From Bacteroidota bacterium (lineage in GTDB: Bacteria; Bacteroidota; Bacteroidia; Palsa-965), in assembly GCA_016194975.1 (NCBI GenBank), contig JACQAM010000018.1:1-64000 (forward strand): a stretch of 64,000 bases of DNA, written 5' to 3'. Positions 1 to 63,296 of the stretch are shown here, piece by piece (position 1 is the stretch's first letter; every line of letters starts with the position of its first letter). Under the pieces are notes generated by a model. It saw only the letters and a list, made by a program, of their open reading frames with translations, ran no database searches and had not been told where the DNA came from. The position numbers and the translations under genes were made by a program.

Positions 1-2152
1 CTTTTGCGTTTTCCCAATCGGAAGTTTTGAATAAGCCATCAGCGGCTGCAAGTGCATCTTTGTATTTTTTATCAATGTCGGCCAATGCATTTGCATCACA
101 TTTTGCGATCTGGTCTTTCGGATACTGCACATCACTCTTCACCGCGCTTGCCTGCTGGTAAATTGTTTTCGCTCCAGCCCAATCGCTCGCTTTGAATTTT
201 TCATCCGCCTGCGCGATCAGGTCGTTGTATTTTTTATCGACGCCGGCTTTCGCAAGATTCGCATCACAAATTTTTATCTGGTCTTTTGGATATTGTTCCG
301 TTGCCTTCATCGCGCTTGCCTGCGTGTACAAAGTTTTTGCTCCGGCCCAATCGTTTGCTTTGAATTTGTCATCGGCCTGCGCAATAAGATCGTTGTAAGG
401 TTTGTCTTTCGCCGCCTGAATATTTTTATCGCAGATCGCAATCTGGTCTTTCGGATACTGTACATCACTCTTCACCGCACTCGCCTGCTGGTAAATTGTT
501 TTCGCTCCCGCCCAATCGCTCGCTTTAAATTTTGTGTCGGCTTGCGCGATCAGGTCGTTGTATTTTTTATCAAGGCCCTCTTTAGCAAGATTCGCATCGC
601 AAAGTTTTATCTGATCCTTTGGATATTGTTCCGCTGTCTTTAGCCCCGACGCTTCCAAATATTTTGCTTTCGCACCGGCCCAATCCGAAGTTTTAAATAA
701 TGCATCAGCAGCGGCTATCGCATCATTGTATTTTTTATCGAGATCAACTTTTGCCAATGCCGCATCGCACAACTTCATCTGGTCTTTCGGATACTGCTCC
801 GTATTTTTCAGATCACTCGCCTGCTGGTAAATTGTTTTTGCTCCGGCCCAATCGCTCGCTTTGAATTTTGCGTCGGCCTGCGCAATTAGATCATTGTATT
901 TTTTATCGGCTCCTGCTTTCGCAATGTTCGCATCACACAATGCGATCTGGTCTTTCGGATATTGCTCTGCAGGTTTAATTCCTGACGCTTCGGTGTATTT
1001 TGTTTTGGCGCCTGTCCAATCGGAAGATTTGAAAAGTGCATCAGCAGCAGCGATCGCATCGTTGTATTTTTTGTCAATGACCGATTTATTTATTTCTGCA
1101 TCACATTTTGCGATCTGGTCTTTCGGGTATTGTTCCGTACTCCTCATTACCGACGCCTGTTGATAAATTCCTTTAGCGCCGGTAAAATCTGTCGCTGCAA
1201 ATTTTGCATCGGCCTGAGAAATGAGATCATCGTATTTTTTCTTATCGGCTAGTTTGCCAAGTTCCACATCACATTTCGCGATCTGGTCTTTCGGGTATTG
1301 CTCAGCAGGTTTCATTCCCGAAGCTTCCTGGTATTTTGTTTTCGCTCCGGTAAAATCACCGGACTTGAACAAAGCATCGGCGGCTGCAATCGCATCATCA
1401 TATTTTTTCTTGTCAGCACCCTGCTTGTTCAATTCATCATCGCATTTCGCGATCTGGTCTTTCGGATATTGTTCAGTAGCAATAATTCCGAGCGCTTCAT
1501 TGTAAGTTGCTTTTGCGCCCTCCCAGTCTTTTGCAGAGAAAGCTTTATCAGCTCGTGCAATTGCATCATCATATAATTTCTGTCTCTTCTTCGCTTCGTC
1601 GGCAAGGCGTTTGAGATTATCAATGCAGGCCTGCACTTTTGCGAGATAAACTTTATCGTAATCAAAATCGTCCACATCAGGTGCAGGATTATAAACTATT
1701 CTCGCTATGGGCTGATCGAGACAGGAATAATCCAATCCGGGATACATTTTGAAAAGCTCAATCTCCACATCATACTCACCAAACGCGCCTTCTGTTCTCA
1801 CTTGGGGAACATTGTAAGTATTGATCTCAATTTTTTTTGTGATATAGCCCGATTTTGTGATCGTCAGGATGTAATCGCTGTTCGGTGGTGTATCTACTTT
1901 GAATTTTCCATTAGAGGAAATAGTTGGTGAAGCGACGAGTGTTGATCCCGCATAAACATTTACAACGGCTCCGACAAGTGCTACATCTTTTCCTTTTACT
2001 TCATCAAATTCTGTAACGTGTCCCACAAAAGTCAAATGCCAGTCCACTGCTTCGGGCGGTGGCGCCTGCGCGTGAAGAAAACCCGGCAGAATCGCCAGTG
2101 AGAAAAAAATAATGAAGCGTGCAAGGACGCTACCCGGGCCGGTTCCCTTCAT
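1..2152 (-). CDS. Secreted tandem-repeat (TPR-like) protein with N-terminal carboxypeptidase-regulatory-like domain, partial
   Basis: The reading frame is open from an ATG at 2152 to the left edge, so the C-terminus is missing. A signal peptide (KGTGPGSVLARF then a hydrophobic stretch ending FLHAQA) is followed by a beta-sandwich segment (about residues 35-120; VNVYAG, GKFKVDTPP, KSGYITKKIEI) like the carboxypeptidase-regulatory-like domains of Bacteroidota surface proteins. From about residue 195 onward it is made of repeats of about 56 residues with the core YDDAIAAADALFKSGDFTGA and EQYPKDQIAKC. Nine copies of YPKDQI-type motif are visible, spaced 165-171 bp. The unit looks like a modified TPR/helical hairpin with A-W/F and A-K positions. 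A secreted or periplasmic scaffold is inferred; the exact function is unknown. The next gene upstream carries the same repeat. Confidence 0.85.
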   Translation of the reverse strand, partial: MKGTGPGSVLARFIIFFSLAILPGFLHAQAPPPEAVDWHLTFVGHVTEFDEVKGKDVALVGAVVNVYAGSTLVASPTISSNGKFKVDTPPNSDYILTITKSGYITKKIEINTYNVPQVRTEGAFGEYDVEIELFKMYPGLDYSCLDQPIARIVYNPAPDVDDFDYDKVYLAKVQACIDNLKRLADEAKKRQKLYDDAIARADKAFSAKDWEGAKATYNEALGIIATEQYPKDQIAKCDDELNKQGADKKKYDDAIAAADALFKSGDFTGAKTKYQEASGMKPAEQYPKDQIAKCDVELGKLADKKKYDDLISQADAKFAATDFTGAKGIYQQASVMRSTEQYPKDQIAKCDAEINKSVIDKKYNDAIAAADALFKSSDWTGAKTKYTEASGIKPAEQYPKDQIALCDANIAKAGADKKYNDLIAQADAKFKASDWAGAKTIYQQASDLKNTEQYPKDQMKLCDAALAKVDLDKKYNDAIAAADALFKTSDWAGAKAKYLEASGLKTAEQYPKDQIKLCDANLAKEGLDKKYNDLIAQADTKFKASDWAGAKTIYQQASAVKSDVQYPKDQIAICDKNIQAAKDKPYNDLIAQADDKFKANDWAGAKTLYTQASAMKATEQYPKDQIKICDANLAKAGVDKKYNDLIAQADEKFKASDWAGAKTIYQQASAVKSDVQYPKDQIAKCDANALADIDKKYKDALAAADGLFKTSDWENAK
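20..1576 (-). repeat. Tandem array of about 168-bp coding repeats
   Basis: The plus-strand phrase tggtct(t)tcgga recurs with its first base at about 111, 279, 444, 612, 780, 948, 1116, 1284 and 1455, so the period is 168 bp with two one-codon variations (165 and 171). Period is a multiple of three, the frame is kept, and each unit encodes one 56-residue repeat. Copies are diverged but several stretches are near-identical, consistent with recent duplication. The array continues beyond the left edge. Confidence 0.9.
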
Positions 2153-2270
2153 GTGCGGAAATAGAGGTGTTTTTAAGCGCTTCAAATATCGTTGAAAAAT
2201 CCTGATTTACCCAATAGTGATTTCAACAGGGTATGCAACTTAAACAGGCATTTTCTGTGCCAGAATTAGA

Positions 2271-2306
2271 ACCGAGAACTGAGAAAGGAGAACTGAGAGT
2301 TAAGAG
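2271..2306. repeat. Short phrase repeat 'gaactgagaa' in intergenic gap
   Basis: The gap 2153-2339 between two minus-strand genes holds a run of the word GAACTGAGA (gaaccgagaactgagaaaggagaactgagagt). The same word is seen as cagaactcagaact at about 18450-18470 in another gap. It looks like one of the small dispersed intergenic repeat families of this genome. No gene is seen here. Confidence 0.5.
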
Positions 2307-2339
2307 ATGCCCTTTAGAAAGAACGGAAGGTGCCATCGG

Positions 2340-2999
2340 CTAATCTTGTTTAGTGCGGGGGTAGCCCATTTTACTTTCGCACATTCCCATCTGATCTTTA
2401 GGATACTTTTCATTGGGAAAAACAGAATGTGCCAGTTGATAATAACGAAGTGCATTTTCCCAATCGGAAGAGGTATAACATTCATCGCCTTGCTTAATGA
2501 AGTAATTATATTCTTCTTTATGATTTTTTGCACTGGTCTCCGGAACTTCTGCCAATTTATCATTGCAGAATTTTATCATGACTTTCGGATAAGGATCGGC
2601 GTTCGCTTCAAAATCATCTTGTTGGTAATATTTTTTTGCCGCTTCCCAGTTTTTCGTCTTGAAACAGGAATCGCCCTTATTTAAATTAGAACGATAATTA
2701 TTGGCTGCATTCGCCATTTCTGTCGAGTCAGCAACAACTTTTTCACAATAGGCAATTTTGTCCATTGGATATTTTTCACCGGGTTTTAACTGGTGCGCCT
2801 GTTGGTAATAATATATTGCGGTATTCCAATTGTAATTGGCAAATGCATCATCAGCTTTTTTTATGAGGTCATTATAATTTTCGGGAATAACCTGACTTTT
2901 TTTTGTGGTGTCAGGAAATAAAACAAAATGATTTCCGGCAAATGATTTTTCTCCGAAAGCAAAAACAAGAGTGAAAAACAACAGAAAAACCTTTCTCAT
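2340..2999 (-). CDS. Secreted protein with three-to-four YPKDQ-type TPR-like repeats
   Basis: 219 residues. A signal peptide (MRKVFLLFFTLVFAFG, cleavage near SFA) precedes repeats of the pattern YNxLIKKADDAF..W..A.YYYQQAHQLKPGEKYPMDKI, with further copies ending ADPYPKVMI and PNEKYPKDQM. The repeat matches the unit of the large protein encoded just downstream on the same strand, so the two are paralogous and probably one functional unit in the periplasm or on the surface. No catalytic motif is visible. Start is the ATG at 2999, which gives a clean signal peptide. It could be called a TPR-like protein; the specific partner is unknown. Confidence 0.85.
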   Translation of the reverse strand: MRKVFLLFFTLVFAFGEKSFAGNHFVLFPDTTKKSQVIPENYNDLIKKADDAFANYNWNTAIYYYQQAHQLKPGEKYPMDKIAYCEKVVADSTEMANAANNYRSNLNKGDSCFKTKNWEAAKKYYQQDDFEANADPYPKVMIKFCNDKLAEVPETSAKNHKEEYNYFIKQGDECYTSSDWENALRYYQLAHSVFPNEKYPKDQMGMCESKMGYPRTKQD

Positions 3000-3059
3000 C
3001 AGAATCTCATTTACATCATTACTTTTACCGTGAATTATTTCTGAAAGTTAATTCATTCC

Positions 3060-4199
3060 ATGCAAACGCAGCTCAGTTTCTGGGAAAAGGACCGTTATTA
3101 TTCCAGCATCGACATCGTGATCGCCGGCAGCGGAATTGTGGGATTGAATTCGGCGTTGTACCTGAAGAAAAAAAATCCTTCGCTGAATATTCTTGTGGCA
3201 GAACGGGGCGCGCTTCCGTCGGGAGCCAGTACAAAAAATGCCGGGTTTGCCTGCTTCGGAAGTCCGAGTGAACTCATTGACGATCTTGCGCGCATGCCCG
3301 AAGAAGACGTTTTTTCATTGGTAGAAAAAAGATTTCTTGGTTTGCAGCGGCTTAGAGAAAATATCGGCGATGAGGCGATGCGCTTCGAGAATTTTGGCGG
3401 CTATGAAGTTTTTACGAATGATGAAACCTACAAAGAATGCGAGGATCATCTTACTTATTTCAATTCGCGCCTGAAAAAAATTACTGCTCAGGAAAAGTCA
3501 TTTCTTATTGCCGACGAGAAGATCCGCGAATTTGGTTTGGGAAATGTAAAACACCTGATCCGGATTCCGGCCGAAGGACAGATAGACACCGGGAGAATGA
3601 TGGAAGCGCTCATTGCAAAAGTAAAATCTCTGGGCGTGAAGATCATCAACGGGATCGGGATAAAAAGATTTGAGACGGATGAGAAAGGGGTTCTGCTCCA
3701 CACCGATCAGGAATATGATATCCGCGCAAAACGATTTCTCATTTGTGTGAATGGTTTTGCGAAAAAACTTTTACCGGCAGAAGATGTGGAGCCCGCGCGT
3801 GCGCAGGTGCTTATCACGCATCCCGTGCACGGACTGAAACTAAAAGGAACTTTTCATTACGACAAGGGCTATTATTATTTCCGCAATGTGAATGACCGCG
3901 TACTTTTCGGCGGAGGAAGAAATCTCGATTTCACAGGAGAAAATACGACCGATCACGCACTCACTGCTCAAATTCAGAATCGCCTCGATGAAGTTTTAAA
4001 AACAATGATCCTTCCCGGAATTGATTTTAAAGTGGACCTGCGCTGGTCGGGAACAATGGGTATAGGCGCGAAAAAAAATCCGATTGTGAAAAAAATTTCC
4101 GATCACGTGTATTGCGCGGTGCGCATGGGCGGAATGGGCGTTGCGCTCGGAAGTCTTACCGGCGAAGAAGCGGCGGATCTTGTGCTGAAAGAAATGTGA
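3060..4199 (+). CDS. FAD-dependent oxidoreductase, DAO/glycine oxidase family
   Basis: 379 residues, normal for the DAO family. An N-terminal dinucleotide-binding motif IVIAGSGIVGLNSALYL (about residues 18-35) is followed by the family pattern SGASTKNAGFACFGSP, in which the FAD contacts lie. The C-terminus has GTMGIGAKKNPIV and VRMGGMGVALGSLTGEEAA, the usual second FAD motif. No signal peptide is present, so it is cytoplasmic. The likely reaction is oxidative deamination or demethylation of an amino acid or small amine, but the substrate cannot be read from the sequence. A near-consensus -7 box (TACTTTTA, 3020-3027) lies upstream. Confidence 0.9.
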   Translation: MQTQLSFWEKDRYYSSIDIVIAGSGIVGLNSALYLKKKNPSLNILVAERGALPSGASTKNAGFACFGSPSELIDDLARMPEEDVFSLVEKRFLGLQRLRENIGDEAMRFENFGGYEVFTNDETYKECEDHLTYFNSRLKKITAQEKSFLIADEKIREFGLGNVKHLIRIPAEGQIDTGRMMEALIAKVKSLGVKIINGIGIKRFETDEKGVLLHTDQEYDIRAKRFLICVNGFAKKLLPAEDVEPARAQVLITHPVHGLKLKGTFHYDKGYYYFRNVNDRVLFGGGRNLDFTGENTTDHALTAQIQNRLDEVLKTMILPGIDFKVDLRWSGTMGIGAKKNPIVKKISDHVYCAVRMGGMGVALGSLTGEEAADLVLKEM

Positions 4200-4236
4200 T
4201 TTGATATTCAATGATTCGAAAATTCACAGGGAGCTT

Positions 4237-4782
4237 TTATTCCATTCGAATCATTTCATTTTCCTCAAAAGGTTCGGGTTGTTTTTCGGGTTCAGTAATT
4301 ATTTCCAGGTAATTTTCAGTTCCTTTTAATTTGTAATCGGCATGGAAGGCAAATGCAAACGGAATGAAATAGTGTTCTTTTTTTCCCGGCGCGGCTTTAA
4401 ATCCCATTGAGAAATAACGGCCGGATTGTAAACTTATACCTCGCTTTATTTCCATGAAAAACAATTTCAGGTAATGTTGCGCTGTATCTTTTTCCCAGGT
4501 GATGTTGCTGAAGTTCGAACTGTCATCGACATCGAACGAAACAATTAATTTCCCCTGTATACCATTTTCCTTTAACATCAGCGGATACTGAATATTTTTT
4601 GAAAACGTTTTGACGATCGTGTCCTCTACTTTCATCCATTTATGTAAACGATACGAGGAAATTTTCAGCGTCGTATCTGCTTTCAGCTTTCCATCATTCC
4701 TGTAAAAAAACGAATTGGTTTCAGTGGCCAATGAAAAACCGGAAAGGAGAAGAATGATAAAAGCCGCATAAATGGATCGCAT
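4237..4782 (-). CDS. Secreted protein with TonB C-terminal-like domain
   Basis: 181 residues with a signal peptide (MRSIYAAFIILLLSGFSLA). The segment NIQYPLMLKENGIQGKLIVSFDVDDSSNFSNI (about 63-95; YP, GIQGK, VSF.VD) resembles the C-terminal domain of TonB-like proteins common in Bacteroidota, here without the usual transmembrane anchor and proline-rich spacer. The domain is therefore secreted on its own, possibly as a periplasmic adaptor. The C-terminal acidic tail (EPEKQPEPFEENE) is unremarkable. A perfect TAnnTTTG box lies on this strand at 4836-4843. Assignment of the domain is by pattern only. Confidence 0.7.
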   Translation of the reverse strand: MRSIYAAFIILLLSGFSLATETNSFFYRNDGKLKADTTLKISSYRLHKWMKVEDTIVKTFSKNIQYPLMLKENGIQGKLIVSFDVDDSSNFSNITWEKDTAQHYLKLFFMEIKRGISLQSGRYFSMGFKAAPGKKEHYFIPFAFAFHADYKLKGTENYLEIITEPEKQPEPFEENEMIRME

Positions 4783-4835
4783 ACAATAGGAACGCGGCGG
4801 ATTTTATTTTTCCATACTTCTCAGCACTCATTTTT

Positions 4836-4843
4836 CAAAGATA
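4836..4843 (-). promoter_or_regulatory. -7 promoter box TATCTTTG for the 4782 gene
   Basis: Plus-strand CAAAGATA reads TATCTTTG on the minus strand, a perfect match to the Bacteroidota TAnnTTTG box. It lies about 54 bp upstream of the ATG at 4782. No clear -33 TTG partner is seen. Confidence 0.6.
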
Positions 4844-57801: not shown

Positions 57802-59730
57802 TCAGTTCACCACCAGCTTCTTCGTTCCTATCACCTCTCCTTTTTCATTGGAGATCCGCACAAAATAAATTCCGGCATTCAACGCAGCAACATCGATGGA
57901 AGTTTTCCCGGAAAATTTTATTGGCGGAAGAATTTCCCTTCCGGAAATATCCGTGACCACAGCAGCATAATTCTCATTCGCATTTTTCATTTCAAGATTC
58001 ACCGTTCCATTTGCGGGGTTCGGATAAAGTGAAAAATTATTTCCCGCAGAATTTTCTGCAATGCCGGAAACATCGTACGCATTATAAAAAACCGGCCGCA
58101 TCATGAGCGATCCATTGTAAATGGAAGTGTACCAGTTGCCGGTGGTGTTGTAATAGATCTTGTCGTGATGATCGGTATTGAAATCAAAACCGAGATAAAG
58201 AATGTCGGCCGTCGATTGCACCCAACCGATATAATATTTCTGTCCCGACTGCAGCGCTACTGTTCCGCTATCAATAGTGTACGTTACAAAACGATCGGTC
58301 GATTCAAATTTTCTCCCGATATGCTGGTTGCGCTGGCGATAGATCACTGAGCCCGGAGCATTACCCACATCATTCCAAACTGTAAGTTGAAAATCATAAA
58401 CATCAAGATCAAGCAGGTCGCGCACAGGAAGAAAATACATCTGCACAGCTTTCAGCGTATCATTAATACCAATGGGCATCGTGAATTGATACGCAAGAGA
58501 AGAATTCGTTCCGATAAGTCCGTAACCTACTTCAGCAGTTCCATCATCGTAGGCATAATAATTATAGAATTTCTGATTCTGCACCATGGTGTCAATGTCA
58601 GTCGAACTGTGCAAAATATGCTGCACGCGAAAAGTTGTAGTGTCTGATTGAAGCGAAAATTGCGTGTAGTTCCATCCGATGGGCGGATCTGTGATTGGCG
58701 CATAACTCATGTATCCCGAAGTGGCGAAAGGCATGATCGTTTGAGTAACTCCTGCTGCATTCGGATAGATCGGAGTGAGCAACGTGTTATCTGATTTTAA
58801 AACATCGTACCAATACGTAACACTTCTTCCTGTAGAAATTGTATCGTGATTCGCGATCTGCACTTCGAAATTCGAAGCCATCATCGAAGGTTTGAAATGT
58901 GTAACAGGAACAGCCCAGTAATCCGTGAGGCCGGAACTCGCAGGATAAACAAAATCGACATGACGTGAAAAAGTATCAGCCGCACTGCGCAGACTTTTCA
59001 TATACACATCATCAATATGCCAATGATCATTGCTTCCGCAACGGGATCCCCAATTGATAAAACGGAATTTCAATCCTTTCACAAAATAAGATGCGCTATC
59101 GAGCTTGAACATCACGATATGAAAAAGTGTATCAGAGATCGATGGATTGTATCCTTCAAGAAACCAAACTGTTTTCCAGTTCGTGATCGTTTGATTGGGA
59201 TTCCATCCGCGCGCACTCACTTGCAGGATGAGCGAGTCCATTGTATTCGGCGCATAACCTCTTCCCTTCGCCTGGTACCAGAAACTCAGGTAAACAGAAT
59301 CGGCAACAGAATATGCACTGAGATCGAGCGGGCGCGATGTAAGACTATCACAACGGCCGGTGCTGTTCGGCGCCGCAAGCGAATCATACGGCATTCCGTT
59401 TATGTCAAGGCCGTCGAATGTACACACACCAAGATCGGGAGGACAGAACGCCCATGTGCGATTCACAAAAACAGGAGGAGATATTGTAAGATCCCATATC
59501 GTGGTATCGGGTTGATGCGAATCGTAAGAAAAATTATCGCGCAATCCTGCAGAAGGAAGCGCAACCGTATCGTTGGGGAAAGTGGCAGTTCTCTGCGTAG
59601 ATCGCAACAGGGATTCCTGTTTCTGAATCGCATTCTCCGTGAGCGGAATTAATTTTTCTCCGTTCGAAGAAGTCTGCGCGAAAATTAATGTTGCAGAAAA
59701 AAATATTATGGATGAAAAAATAAATTTCAT
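57802..59730 (-). CDS. T9SS-secreted protein with type A sorting domain
   Basis: 642 residues from the ATG at 59730 (a TTG at 59736 is the alternative). Signal MKFIFSSIIFFSATLIFAQ. After a linker, a beta-sandwich resembling MAM/jelly-roll extracellular domains appears (YLSFWYQAKG, LKFRFINWGSRCGSNDHWHIDDVYM, about 165-255), followed by a second beta-rich part with GQKYYIGWVQSTADILYLGFDF. The C-terminal sorting domain is FSLYPNPANGTVNLEM, VTDISGREI, ALNAGIYFVRISNEKGEVIGTKKLVVN. Probably the last gene of the ddl-PASTA-T9SS group (12-bp gap). Ligand unknown. Confidence 0.92.
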   Translation of the reverse strand: MKFIFSSIIFFSATLIFAQTSSNGEKLIPLTENAIQKQESLLRSTQRTATFPNDTVALPSAGLRDNFSYDSHQPDTTIWDLTISPPVFVNRTWAFCPPDLGVCTFDGLDINGMPYDSLAAPNSTGRCDSLTSRPLDLSAYSVADSVYLSFWYQAKGRGYAPNTMDSLILQVSARGWNPNQTITNWKTVWFLEGYNPSISDTLFHIVMFKLDSASYFVKGLKFRFINWGSRCGSNDHWHIDDVYMKSLRSAADTFSRHVDFVYPASSGLTDYWAVPVTHFKPSMMASNFEVQIANHDTISTGRSVTYWYDVLKSDNTLLTPIYPNAAGVTQTIMPFATSGYMSYAPITDPPIGWNYTQFSLQSDTTTFRVQHILHSSTDIDTMVQNQKFYNYYAYDDGTAEVGYGLIGTNSSLAYQFTMPIGINDTLKAVQMYFLPVRDLLDLDVYDFQLTVWNDVGNAPGSVIYRQRNQHIGRKFESTDRFVTYTIDSGTVALQSGQKYYIGWVQSTADILYLGFDFNTDHHDKIYYNTTGNWYTSIYNGSLMMRPVFYNAYDVSGIAENSAGNNFSLYPNPANGTVNLEMKNANENYAAVVTDISGREILPPIKFSGKTSIDVAALNAGIYFVRISNEKGEVIGTKKLVVN

Positions 59731-59742
59731 TTTCAATCTAAT

Positions 59743-60573
59743 TTACGGTCTTTTCACTTTGGTTGTATCGCCGCTGCTGATCTGCAATTTGTCTCCTGAA
59801 ACACGAAGATCAATCGTCGATCCCTGCAACATTCTTTTATCTCTTCCTGCAGGAGGATCCTGGTTGTAGATGATCGCATTCAGCGTATCCTTCACACCGG
59901 GATCAGGAATGAGCACCCATTCCACACCGAGGTCTGTCATTTTTCCGCGCGCTGCACGAAACGTCATTCCCACAAGTTGAGGAACTGCAAAACCGGAGCT
60001 GCTGTTGGCAGAACCTTTTCCGACATTCAACGTGATGAGTGATCCTTTTTCGATCATCGTTCCGGGTGCAATATGTTTTTTATCGTATAGCATACTCACC
60101 ACGAGATCCTGTCTTTCATCATCGACCATGGTGATGCTCGTGCGTAATCCGTAACTCTCGCAAACGCGAACCGCTTGCCGGTCCGACATTGGCTTATTGC
60201 TTTTTGTTCCATCCAGATCGGGCATTGCAATTTTCGGTGGCTGACTGGAAGTAACGTAGAGATAAATTTTTCTTCCCTGCTTCACTTTGTCGCCAGGATC
60301 AGGATCCTGTTTGATGACGGTTCCTTTTTCTTGTTTCGGATCGTAAATGGAATCGATGATCTCGTAGGAAATATTTTTATCGGCAACAAAATCATCGAGC
60401 TGGCGGATCTTTAAATTTCTAAAATCAGGAACAGTGATCGTGTCGTTGTGATGCGTGTACGATGCGAGCCACAGAAAAATGCACCAGATCACCAATGGCA
60501 ATGCGACGATCGCAATCCCGATATTGATAAGGAACGTGCGGCTTTTGAGGAAAGTGAAAATATTTTTAAACAT
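59743..60573 (-). CDS. PASTA-domain membrane protein
   Basis: 276 residues from the ATG at 60573; the longer form from 60648 would overlap the ligase gene. One N-terminal membrane segment (FLINIGIAIVALPLVIWCIFLWLA), then about three PASTA domains: TVPDFRNLKIRQLDDFVADKNISYEII with IKQDPDPGDKVKQGRKIYLYV; IAMPDLDGTKSNKPM..QAVRVCESYGL; and AVPQLVGMTFRAARGKMTDLGVEWVLIP. PASTA domains bind unlinked peptidoglycan. There is no kinase domain. Five bases from the ddl fusion gene, so co-transcribed. Confidence 0.92.
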   Translation of the reverse strand: MFKNIFTFLKSRTFLINIGIAIVALPLVIWCIFLWLASYTHHNDTITVPDFRNLKIRQLDDFVADKNISYEIIDSIYDPKQEKGTVIKQDPDPGDKVKQGRKIYLYVTSSQPPKIAMPDLDGTKSNKPMSDRQAVRVCESYGLRTSITMVDDERQDLVVSMLYDKKHIAPGTMIEKGSLITLNVGKGSANSSSGFAVPQLVGMTFRAARGKMTDLGVEWVLIPDPGVKDTLNAIIYNQDPPAGRDKRMLQGSTIDLRVSGDKLQISSGDTTKVKRP

Positions 60574-60577
60574 GGGA

Positions 60578-63280
60578 TCAGGCAGTTTTTTTGACCTGCC
60601 GTTGCTTGCGGGCGAATGCGAAGTCGAGAATTCTGTCAATGAAATCATACGGTTTGTAACGCTGGATCGCGGCCTGGTGAAAGATGCACGTGGCGGGTGT
60701 CATTCCCGGGAGAGAATTCACCTCCACAAAAATTATTTCCGATTTTCCATCGGCGTACACGCGTACGAACGCATCAATGCGCGCGTAACCCTGTACATGC
60801 AACAGACGCGCGGCTGCCCCGAGAGTTGCCTTAACATTATCCGAAATTTTTCTGCGTTTCACAGGATCGTGATCATAACGTGCGGGCGTGATGTTCTGTC
60901 CCTGCCCGGCAAGAAATTTTTCTTCGAGCGAAAGCACTTCTCCTTCTGATAAAGCTTCGGAAGCTTCGAACACTTCATACTCCAGTTCACCTTTATCGTC
61001 ATACTTCGTGATCAGTCCGCCGGTGACCTCGAGAAAATGTGCGGCATCTTTTTTACTGATGAGTTCTTCAACGAGAAAAACTTTTTTCCGCGGAAATTCT
61101 TCTTTGGGTTTTACCCTGAGCAATTCTGCTTTTGACGCATCGAATTCCTCTGTTTTGCGGAAGATCAATTCTGCAAAGGCCGCCAGTTCTTCTTTGTTCC
61201 TGATCCTTCTCACTGCGCTGCTGCATCCATCATCGACAGGTTTTGCAATGAAGGGCCATTTTATTTTCTCATCGATACGGCGGAGAACTTCGTTTTTATT
61301 TTCATTCCATTCTTTCTCGCCTACGAGCAGGTGCGCGGCTGCGAGAAATCCATTCTGCATCAGGATCTCATTCGTCCGGAATTTATCGATCGTGATCTCT
61401 GAACTGCTTTTCCCGGAACCGTTGTATGGAATTCCAAGCGCATCAAGTTTTTCCTGCACAGCGCCATCTTCACCGGGACGGCCGTGCAGCGCAATGAAAA
61501 CCACATCGGCCATTGCGGCAAGTTCTTCGTAAGAAATTTTCTTAGGAGCAGCAAGCGCACCGGGTGAAGAGAATTTTTTTGTGATCCATTCGCAACGGCG
61601 GATAATATTTTTCACAACCGGGTGAACTTTCCAACTCATAATTTTTTCCCTGATGTCGTCGGCATTATCCTTCAGCAAAACATTTACGGGAATAGTATAA
61701 AGTTCATGATCGTTATTATCGCCGGAAAGAAAAACCGGGAGCGGAGCATACTTGGTGGAAGAGGAAAGTTTTTCATACACATTCCTTCCGCTCTCGACTG
61801 AAATATGGCGCTCGGATGAATAGCCACCGAGGAGAACAGCCGTTTTTATTTTTCTTTCCTGCTTTTCTTTCGAACGGTCGATCGCCTCATTCAATTGCTT
61901 CAGCATTTCTTCAGCGTGTCCCGAATTCTTTTCCTGCTTCATCCGGCAGCGGAGAGAAGTGTGAATGATATACGTGAGAAACCGGGAAGGATCCAACCCG
62001 ATCTCAGCGGCCTGGTGAAAGAAAAAAGAAGACGGCATCATTCCCGAAGTGGTGTTCGGATCATTAAGGAAAATTTTTCCTTCCGGTGAAATGAATCCAT
62101 CGATGCGCGCATACACATCGAAATCCAGTGATGAAAAAAGACGCTCGCATTCTTTCCGGATCTCTTCGATCTGTTCATCGGGTAATTCTATCGGCGTGAT
62201 CTTGCGTGAAAGCCCCGGAAGATATTTTGAACGGTAATCAAAAAGTTCTTTGCCCTTACGGATCTCTGTGGGTGGAAGAGCAACCGGTTTTCCATTCTCA
62301 TCTTCCACCACGATACAGGAAAATTCTTTCCCGGTGATGAATCCTTCGATCAGCACTTCCGATTCACCATCCAGCGAAACCAGGTGGATTACATTATCAT
62401 TTTTTTCAAAATATTTTTCAATCCTTTCGAGAAGAACATCAGGGTGGTGAATAATTTCAGAATTTCCACTCGTGCGCATCTGCACGGGCATGCCTATGCC
62501 TTCGCGTATATCGGCAAGCACGCGCACGTAATCATTTTTTTCCTGTGTTGAGAAAGTTTTCCATTCAGCAGCAGCGAGGTGTCTCTCAAAAAAACTTCTT
62601 TCCACCGCATTGGCAAACGACTCTTGATTTTTTTCCCTGAGAATACTCACCCCGATGGATGAACCCTGGTTCGCAGCTTTCACCACTAAAGGAAAGCCGA
62701 TCTCTTTTTCAGCACGTGCAAAACAAGAATGAGGATCCTTGGTCCATTCATTTTTCGTAACGGAAAAAAACTGCGGAGAATTAAATCCGGCATTCACCAT
62801 CAGTTTTTTCTGGATCACTTTATTGATGCCGATTGCCGAAGGAAGAACGCCACTCCCGGTATATGGAATGCCGAGATATTCAAACATTCCCTGGATGCGG
62901 CCATCCTCCCCGAAAGGCCCGTGAAGGCAGAGAAATGCGAGGTCGAAATTATTTTTCAGTTCAGAAGGAAGAATTTTTTCCCCGAGCACCGTTATCATTT
63001 CATCGATCACTTTCTCACCGGGATTCAAACTTTCGGCATAGACCTGGAATTCGCCGGGAGAATCCGGCACCATTTCAACAGGAGGATAAAAATCGCGGAT
63101 GCTTCCTTTGTAAATGAATTCCCAATTGAGCAGGATGAAATTTCCGAAACTATCCACAAAAACAGGAACAGCATCGAAAAGCGATTTGTCGAGATTATCA
63201 AAGACGGTTCTTCCACCTGCAAATGAGATCTCCCGCTCTTTTGAAAAACCACCGAAAATGATACCAATACGGATCTTCAT
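60578..63280 (-). CDS. ddl: Tandem D-alanine-D-alanine ligase fusion (Ddl-Ddl)
   Basis: 900 residues from the ATG at 63280 (TTG at 63286 not needed). Two full ATP-grasp Ddl domains in one chain: domain 1 about 1-445 (FGGFSKEREIS, LHGPFGEDGRIQG, PYTGSG, VKAANQGSSIGVS, LNDPNTTSGMMPSS), domain 2 about 478-895 (LGGYSSERHISVESG, LHGRPGEDGAVQEKL, PYNGSG, KPVDDGCSSAV, VEVNSLPGMTPATC). In domain 1 the usual Mg-binding E-x-N is D-P-N and there is about 65 residues of extra sequence after the GSS loop. Domain 2 keeps E-V-N and the DK of TIDKF. It joins D-Ala for peptidoglycan; which half is active is open. Confidence 0.93.
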   Translation of the reverse strand: MKIRIGIIFGGFSKEREISFAGGRTVFDNLDKSLFDAVPVFVDSFGNFILLNWEFIYKGSIRDFYPPVEMVPDSPGEFQVYAESLNPGEKVIDEMITVLGEKILPSELKNNFDLAFLCLHGPFGEDGRIQGMFEYLGIPYTGSGVLPSAIGINKVIQKKLMVNAGFNSPQFFSVTKNEWTKDPHSCFARAEKEIGFPLVVKAANQGSSIGVSILREKNQESFANAVERSFFERHLAAAEWKTFSTQEKNDYVRVLADIREGIGMPVQMRTSGNSEIIHHPDVLLERIEKYFEKNDNVIHLVSLDGESEVLIEGFITGKEFSCIVVEDENGKPVALPPTEIRKGKELFDYRSKYLPGLSRKITPIELPDEQIEEIRKECERLFSSLDFDVYARIDGFISPEGKIFLNDPNTTSGMMPSSFFFHQAAEIGLDPSRFLTYIIHTSLRCRMKQEKNSGHAEEMLKQLNEAIDRSKEKQERKIKTAVLLGGYSSERHISVESGRNVYEKLSSSTKYAPLPVFLSGDNNDHELYTIPVNVLLKDNADDIREKIMSWKVHPVVKNIIRRCEWITKKFSSPGALAAPKKISYEELAAMADVVFIALHGRPGEDGAVQEKLDALGIPYNGSGKSSSEITIDKFRTNEILMQNGFLAAAHLLVGEKEWNENKNEVLRRIDEKIKWPFIAKPVDDGCSSAVRRIRNKEELAAFAELIFRKTEEFDASKAELLRVKPKEEFPRKKVFLVEELISKKDAAHFLEVTGGLITKYDDKGELEYEVFEASEALSEGEVLSLEEKFLAGQGQNITPARYDHDPVKRRKISDNVKATLGAAARLLHVQGYARIDAFVRVYADGKSEIIFVEVNSLPGMTPATCIFHQAAIQRYKPYDFIDRILDFAFARKQRQVKKTA

Positions 63281-63288
63281 AATCAAAG

Positions 63289-63296
63289 CAAAGATA
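63289..63296 (-). promoter_or_regulatory. -7 promoter box TATCTTTG for the ddl operon
   Basis: Plus-strand CAAAGATA reads TATCTTTG on the minus strand, eight bases upstream of the ATG at 63280. Short leader. Confidence 0.65.

Follow-up and report, generated by a model that had tools for sequence, protein, structure and literature searches.

A widespread tandem of two unlike D-alanine–D-alanine ligase halves in Bacteroidota, fused to a PASTA protein in one family

The tandem ddl locus

The window, which is the whole 64,000-nucleotide stretch of Bacteroidota DNA that was analysed, carries on its reverse strand a gene in which two D-alanine–D-alanine ligase (Ddl) halves, here called D1 and D2, follow each other in one protein (Table 1). 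Motifs by which the halves can be recognized are INK at residues 152-154 of D1 and DK (632-633) and EVN (853-855) of D2. The product of the adjoining gene starts with a hydrophobic helix, as read from the sequence, and continues with PASTA domains, as identified by a Pfam scan. Beside this PASTA gene, at window positions 57802-59736 (-), lies a gene for a secreted protein with a C-terminal sorting tail of the type IX secretion system (PF18962), and a similar PF18962-type secreted protein is encoded nearby in 30 of the 60 tandem loci with enough sequence. On the other side, 8 nt upstream of the tandem ddl ATG, the stretch TATCTTTG at 63289-63296 (-) fits the Bacteroidota -7 box, TAnnTTTG, and the tandem ddl transcript may be nearly leaderless.

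Table 1. Positions of the tandem ddl gene, its parts and the adjoining PASTA gene in the window
Feature	Position	Strand	Remarks
Tandem Ddl gene	60578..63280	(-)	900 aa; ATG 63280, TGA 60580-60578; one open frame
Half 1 (D1)	61883..63280	(-)	residues 1-466
Half 2 (D2)	60581..61855	(-)	residues 476-900
Joint of D1 and D2	61856..61882	(-)	about residues 467-475; frame kept in every full-length orthologue
D1 insertion	62372..62590	(-)	73 aa, residues 231-303; single Ddls lack it
NDPN metal-site motif of D1	62054..62065	(-)	residues 406-409
GC of serine loop, D2	61223..61228	(-)	residues 685-686; Ser150 to Cys
KF of omega loop, D2	60914..60919	(-)	residues 788-789; Tyr216 to Phe
PASTA-domain membrane protein	59743..60573	(-)	276 aa; ATG 60573 is the likely start, 4 nt downstream of the ddl stop

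Two complete folds with different active sites

An earlier note on this DNA had read the gene as two complete Ddls in one protein, and this reading holds: the Pfam scan places Dala_Dala_lig_N and Dala_Dala_lig_C (PF01820 and PF07478) in each half, and the AlphaFold2 model, made with 75 orthologues (pLDDT 86.8, pTM 0.87), contains two complete Ddl folds. In this model, D1 (residues 1-449) matches the Thermus Ddl 6u1d with a Z of 36.9, an rmsd of 2.0 and 322 aligned residues, and D2 (residues 477-899) matches the Ddl-family ligases 1ehi (Z 36.5) and 3tqt (Z 35.9). Low confidence is limited to the omega loops, at residues 353-355 and 779-794, and these loops are mobile in known Ddls. The two halves are only about 24% identical to each other, and each is 28-29% identical to single Ddls. 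The whole protein scores 370.7 bits against the NCBIfam model for D-alanine–D-alanine ligase (TIGR01205), above the cut-off of 245.65 bits, and the halves taken singly both fall below it, D1 at 233.6 bits and D2 at 143.6 bits. By this curated model, D1 therefore counts as a Ddl slightly off centre, and D2 as a Ddl-like ligase that has diverged. Neither half reaches the NCBIfam models of the VanA/B/C/G type, since D2 scores 57-103 bits and D1 at most 156 bits against cut-offs of 495 (VanG) to 775.

The active sites were compared in an alignment of D1 and D2 to 18 single Ddls, E. coli DdlA and DdlB among them; ligand sites carry the numbering of E. coli DdlB, and counts refer to 108 tandem sequences. 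In all 108, D1 retains E15, H63, E68, K97, K144, S150, S151, E180 and E187 as well as K215, Y216, R255, D257 and N272, and Gly153 is also kept. The position of Glu270 is occupied by Asp (D407) in every D1, within the NDPN motif that the earlier note had correctly seen in place of E-x-N. In D2, on the other hand, E15, H63, E68, K97, K144, S151, E180 and E187 are retained in all 108 sequences, as are K215, R255, D257, N272 and Glu270, but Ser150 is replaced by Cys (C686) and Tyr216 by Phe (F789) without exception, and Gly153 by Ala (A689) in 107 of the 108. Thus, among E15, S150, K215, Y216, R255, D257, E270 and N272, D1 misses only E270, and D2 misses S150 and Y216. Even the most diverged tandems (38-46% identical) repeat this Asp/Cys/Phe pattern wherever it can be read, whereas S150, Y216 and E270 are all present in each of the 48 single Ddls compared. 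A published survey found the Glu270 equivalent to be 98-100% conserved among Ddls and the Tyr216 equivalent to be 40-50% conserved, with other aromatic residues as substitutes (PMC6899670). Taken together, the published and the present conservation data mark Asp for Glu270 in D1 as a rare event and, within the set compared, Cys for Ser150 in D2 as another.

The idea, put forward in the earlier note, that the halves are unlike is borne out by these comparisons, and so is the large insertion in D1. The ranking implied there, with a degenerate D1 and an ordinary D2, is not supported, because D1 is closer to a canonical Ddl by both HMM score and pocket residues and D2 is the more remodelled half. 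EVN and DK are indeed kept in D2, as had been pointed out, but the changes at C686, F789 and A689 were overlooked. The N of SAIGINK, which had been listed as a peculiarity of D1, is ordinary: the column of N153 holds D in 65 and N in 40 of the 108 orthologues, and mostly N or S in the single Ddls of Bacteroidia.

Selection appears to have kept both sites. All 15 aligned ligand sites are invariant in D1 and likewise in D2, compared with 27-29% of columns in the background (p about 2e-9 and 4e-9), which is the expected look of two working ATP sites, although conservation is no proof of turnover. In addition, the mean pairwise identity among orthologues is similar for D1 (57%) and D2 (61%), so that neither half is decaying.

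Distribution, origin and the PASTA partner

How widespread the fusion is, a matter raised in the earlier note, was followed in two sets of genomes. Among 59 related genomes, the one studied here included, the tandem occurs in 34 (most at full length, the others truncated at a contig end or interrupted locally) and a single Ddl in 22; three show neither and none shows both. Among 395 genomes sampled evenly across the class, a D2 profile matches 171, belonging to 82 of 197 genera, and a set of 95 genomes with a single Ddl shares no member with these 171; no genome with a tandem and a single Ddl together was found in the genomes surveyed. At least 536 related loci occur among GTDB species genomes, and the matches listed include Pontibacter ramchanderi, Rufibacter psychrotolerans, Sediminibacterium and Sphingobacteriaceae, with cultured Pontibacter and Rufibacter among the carriers. 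No stop interrupts the joint in the other 28 full-length orthologues, which come from separate assemblies. This recurrence in separate assemblies and in cultured organisms refutes the idea that the tandem is an artefact of assembly or frameshift, or a fusion peculiar to this one locus. The tandem is a real and widespread new variant of Ddl.

A search for other ddl genes in the genome, which the earlier note had in view, returned none besides the tandem: the remaining PF07478 matches are two biotin carboxylases, PurT and CarB, which leaves the tandem as the only candidate Ddl. Outside the class, the D1 motif was absent from about 295 sampled genomes of other Bacteroidota classes, by an exact-pattern search that diverged tandems could escape, and IMG/VR gave no match that would indicate viral carriage. 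No convincing stand-alone D2 was seen; most of the short frames lie on small contigs or where a contig begins. Three genomes of the class (G029, G034 and G519) have no clear match to either a tandem or a single Ddl and are either incomplete assemblies or carriers of a further diverged Ddl. A tandem Ddl 66% identical to that of the window is filed under Candidatus Saccharibacteria (L081); the contig probably belongs to Bacteroidota and was misassigned.

A tree built from 40 halves and 18 single Ddls recovers D1 and D2 as two monophyletic groups, each with 100/100 support, apart from the singles and on long stems (3.59 for D2 and 2.27 for D1). By this topology, the tandem arose once, early, and its halves evolved separately afterwards. 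Within one family (f44), genome G054 has the tandem and genome G474 a single Ddl, and this patchiness among related genomes suggests that an essential gene has been replaced or horizontally transferred. The Ddl type also differs between G231 and G092 of another family (f50).

Of 174 good genomes from the class, 171 encode the PASTA protein, almost without exception once each. Its gene directly adjoins the tandem in at least 62 of the 101 loci with enough sequence, as counted by tblastn, which diverged PASTA proteins escape; in some tandem genomes it sits elsewhere. Many genera of the family to which G231 belongs encode Ddl-Ddl-helix-PASTA as a single frame of about 1190-1340 codons, and other genera of the same family keep the tandem Ddl and the PASTA protein as two adjacent genes. 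Four such loci (L174 at 1290-4841, L187, L190 and L191) read through into one hydrophobic helix followed by PASTA-type sequence, and in L174 the PASTA domain was confirmed by Pfam. The linkers differ among these fusions, which therefore do not go back to one sequencing error. As far as seen, the fusion is confined to this one family. The tie between the tandem and the PASTA protein, for which the earlier note had pointed to the shared operon, is thereby drawn closer, and the in-frame fusion of the genes is strong evidence, at the level of sequence, that the two proteins work together.

Possible roles of the two halves and known counterparts

Based on the results presented above, our preferred explanation, in which we place about even confidence, is that the asymmetric tandem serves as the sole Ddl in this bacterium and in much of its class, that D1 makes D-Ala-D-Ala, and that D2 is a remodelled ATP-using site, the whole being coupled to a PASTA protein. 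Of the two halves, D1 is the likelier D-Ala-D-Ala ligase: it has an intact substrate pocket, and the dipeptide, which D1 would hand to MurF, has to come from some enzyme. D2 is probably a further ATP-using site whose pocket has been remodelled: it would still bind ATP and Mg and would probably still ligate, but with Cys for Ser150 and Phe for Tyr216 in its D-Ala pocket, either its substrate or its role towards D1 should differ. It may make the same dipeptide with other kinetics, make another product, or gate D1. The partner of the pair would be a membrane protein with one helix and with PASTA domains outside the cytoplasm, and in the fusion the ligase would lie on the cytosolic side of that protein. 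Such coupling could hold dipeptide synthesis at the sites of wall synthesis or make it respond to wall fragments. The outer parts of PASTA kinases bind wall fragments, and an extended form of the proposal is a receptor-like wall ligase, in which the periplasmic PASTA part senses fragments and, by way of the one membrane helix, regulates a two-site cytosolic Ddl, D2 gates or complements D1, and the state of the wall sets the supply of D-Ala-D-Ala; this form seems to us quite unlikely.

Several points weigh against the preferred explanation. Every D1 has Asp where the metal ligand Glu270 would stand, and the impaired half could therefore be D1. F789 says little by itself, because the position of Tyr216 often holds another aromatic residue in Ddls (PMC6899670). 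Conserved ligand sites are no proof of turnover, the PASTA fusion is limited, as far as seen, to one family, and some tandem genomes have the PASTA gene elsewhere. The assignment may be reversed, with D2 as the working Ddl and D1 as the impaired partner; Asp stands in D1 where all of the single Ddls compared have Glu, D1 carries the 73-aa insertion, and D2 keeps E-V-N. We consider this distinctly improbable, however, since Asp is a conservative metal ligand, Ser150, Tyr216 and Gly153 are kept in D1, D1 scores 90 bits above D2 against TIGR01205, and the two invariant pocket changes are found in D2. A somewhat unlikely reading is that D2 is catalytically silent and acts as a regulatory or structural partner, which would bind ATP or D-Ala and either stabilize D1 as an intramolecular pseudo-dimer or gate it. 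The loss of Ser150 and Tyr216, the longer stem of D2, its score far under the Ddl cut-off and the packing of both halves into one confident body in the AlphaFold2 model are consistent with such a role; on the other hand, all other aligned ATP, Mg and catalytic-loop residues of D2 are invariant, and pseudoenzymes usually lose some of these.

The earlier note had also proposed that the halves make two different dipeptides. This would be a special case of the preferred explanation, with D-Ala-D-Ala as one product and a D-Ala-D-X dipeptide or depsipeptide as the other. Phe at the Tyr216 position is also found in ligases of the D-Ala-D-Lac and D-Ala-D-Ser type; Cys at Ser150, to our knowledge, occurs in none of them. 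The best solved match of D2 in the full model is LmDdl2, a D-Ala:D-lactate ligase (Z 36.5), but when D2 is folded alone, LmDdl2 is merely tied with ordinary Ddls (Z 31.1 vs 32.0), and the fold was therefore set aside as a sign of D-Ala-D-lactate ligation. Scores far below all Van-type cut-offs argue against this special case as well. Nor does the number of MurF proteins follow the tandem. This genome has two (G000:C8:310025-311311 and G000:C4:131216-132481), one a plain 470-aa frame and one an 832-aa frame that is presumably the MurF-alanine racemase fusion of Bacteroidota, but two MurF proteins occur throughout the class, in tandem and single-Ddl genomes alike, and the pair was rejected as an indication of two dipeptides. 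Two products are accordingly rather unlikely.

Ddl, which is essential in most bacteria and a target of D-cycloserine, is usually taught to be a small enzyme and a single one. In about two fifths of the sampled genomes of one large Bacteroidota class, which is among the commonest classes of bacteria, an asymmetric double Ddl replaces that single enzyme, and if D2 regulates D1 or makes something else, it would be a new control point or a new product in wall synthesis. Sequence databases surely carry these proteins as D-alanine–D-alanine ligase, but the architecture, asymmetry and spread of the tandem seem to be undescribed: a search of the open literature, with subscription journals mostly outside it, found no paper on a bacterial tandem Ddl or a Ddl-PASTA fusion.

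Among known systems, the single-chain Ddls (E. coli DdlA/DdlB, TIGR01205) share with each tandem half the fold, the ATP and Mg residues and most of the D-Ala residues; they differ in having one domain in which S150, Y216 and E270 are all present. VanA, VanG and LmDdl2 share their fold with D2 and likewise have Tyr216 replaced, but by score D2 stands well apart from VanA and VanG. The large subunit of carbamoyl phosphate synthetase, CarB, also combines in one chain two ATP-grasp halves that differ from each other and use an ATP each, but family and substrates differ and the likeness is an analogy only. As a parallel for the fusion, the chlamydial MurC-Ddl protein (NCBIfam NF011171) joins Ddl to another enzyme of wall synthesis, although its partner is MurC and it has only one Ddl, unlike the tandem. 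PASTA Ser/Thr kinases (PknB/Stk1) resemble the triple fusion in combining a cytosolic enzyme, one membrane helix and an extracytoplasmic PASTA part; the triple fusion, however, has no kinase domain in the Pfam scan, and its cytosolic part is the double Ddl. In architecture, the tandem resembles the plastid DDL of plants, such as Arabidopsis At-DDL and Physcomitrium PpDDL, which has two DDL units per polypeptide, as in the bacterial tandem, throughout the plant lineage (PMC9954125), and the moss Ddl has been reported as closest to the Fibrobacteres-Chlorobi-Bacteroidetes group (PMC9434261). Any connection of the plant tandem with the bacterial one, likened here by architecture alone, is only a lead, but the tandem offers a bacterial counterpart to the fused plant enzyme, and with it the purpose of a double Ddl becomes testable in a bacterium.
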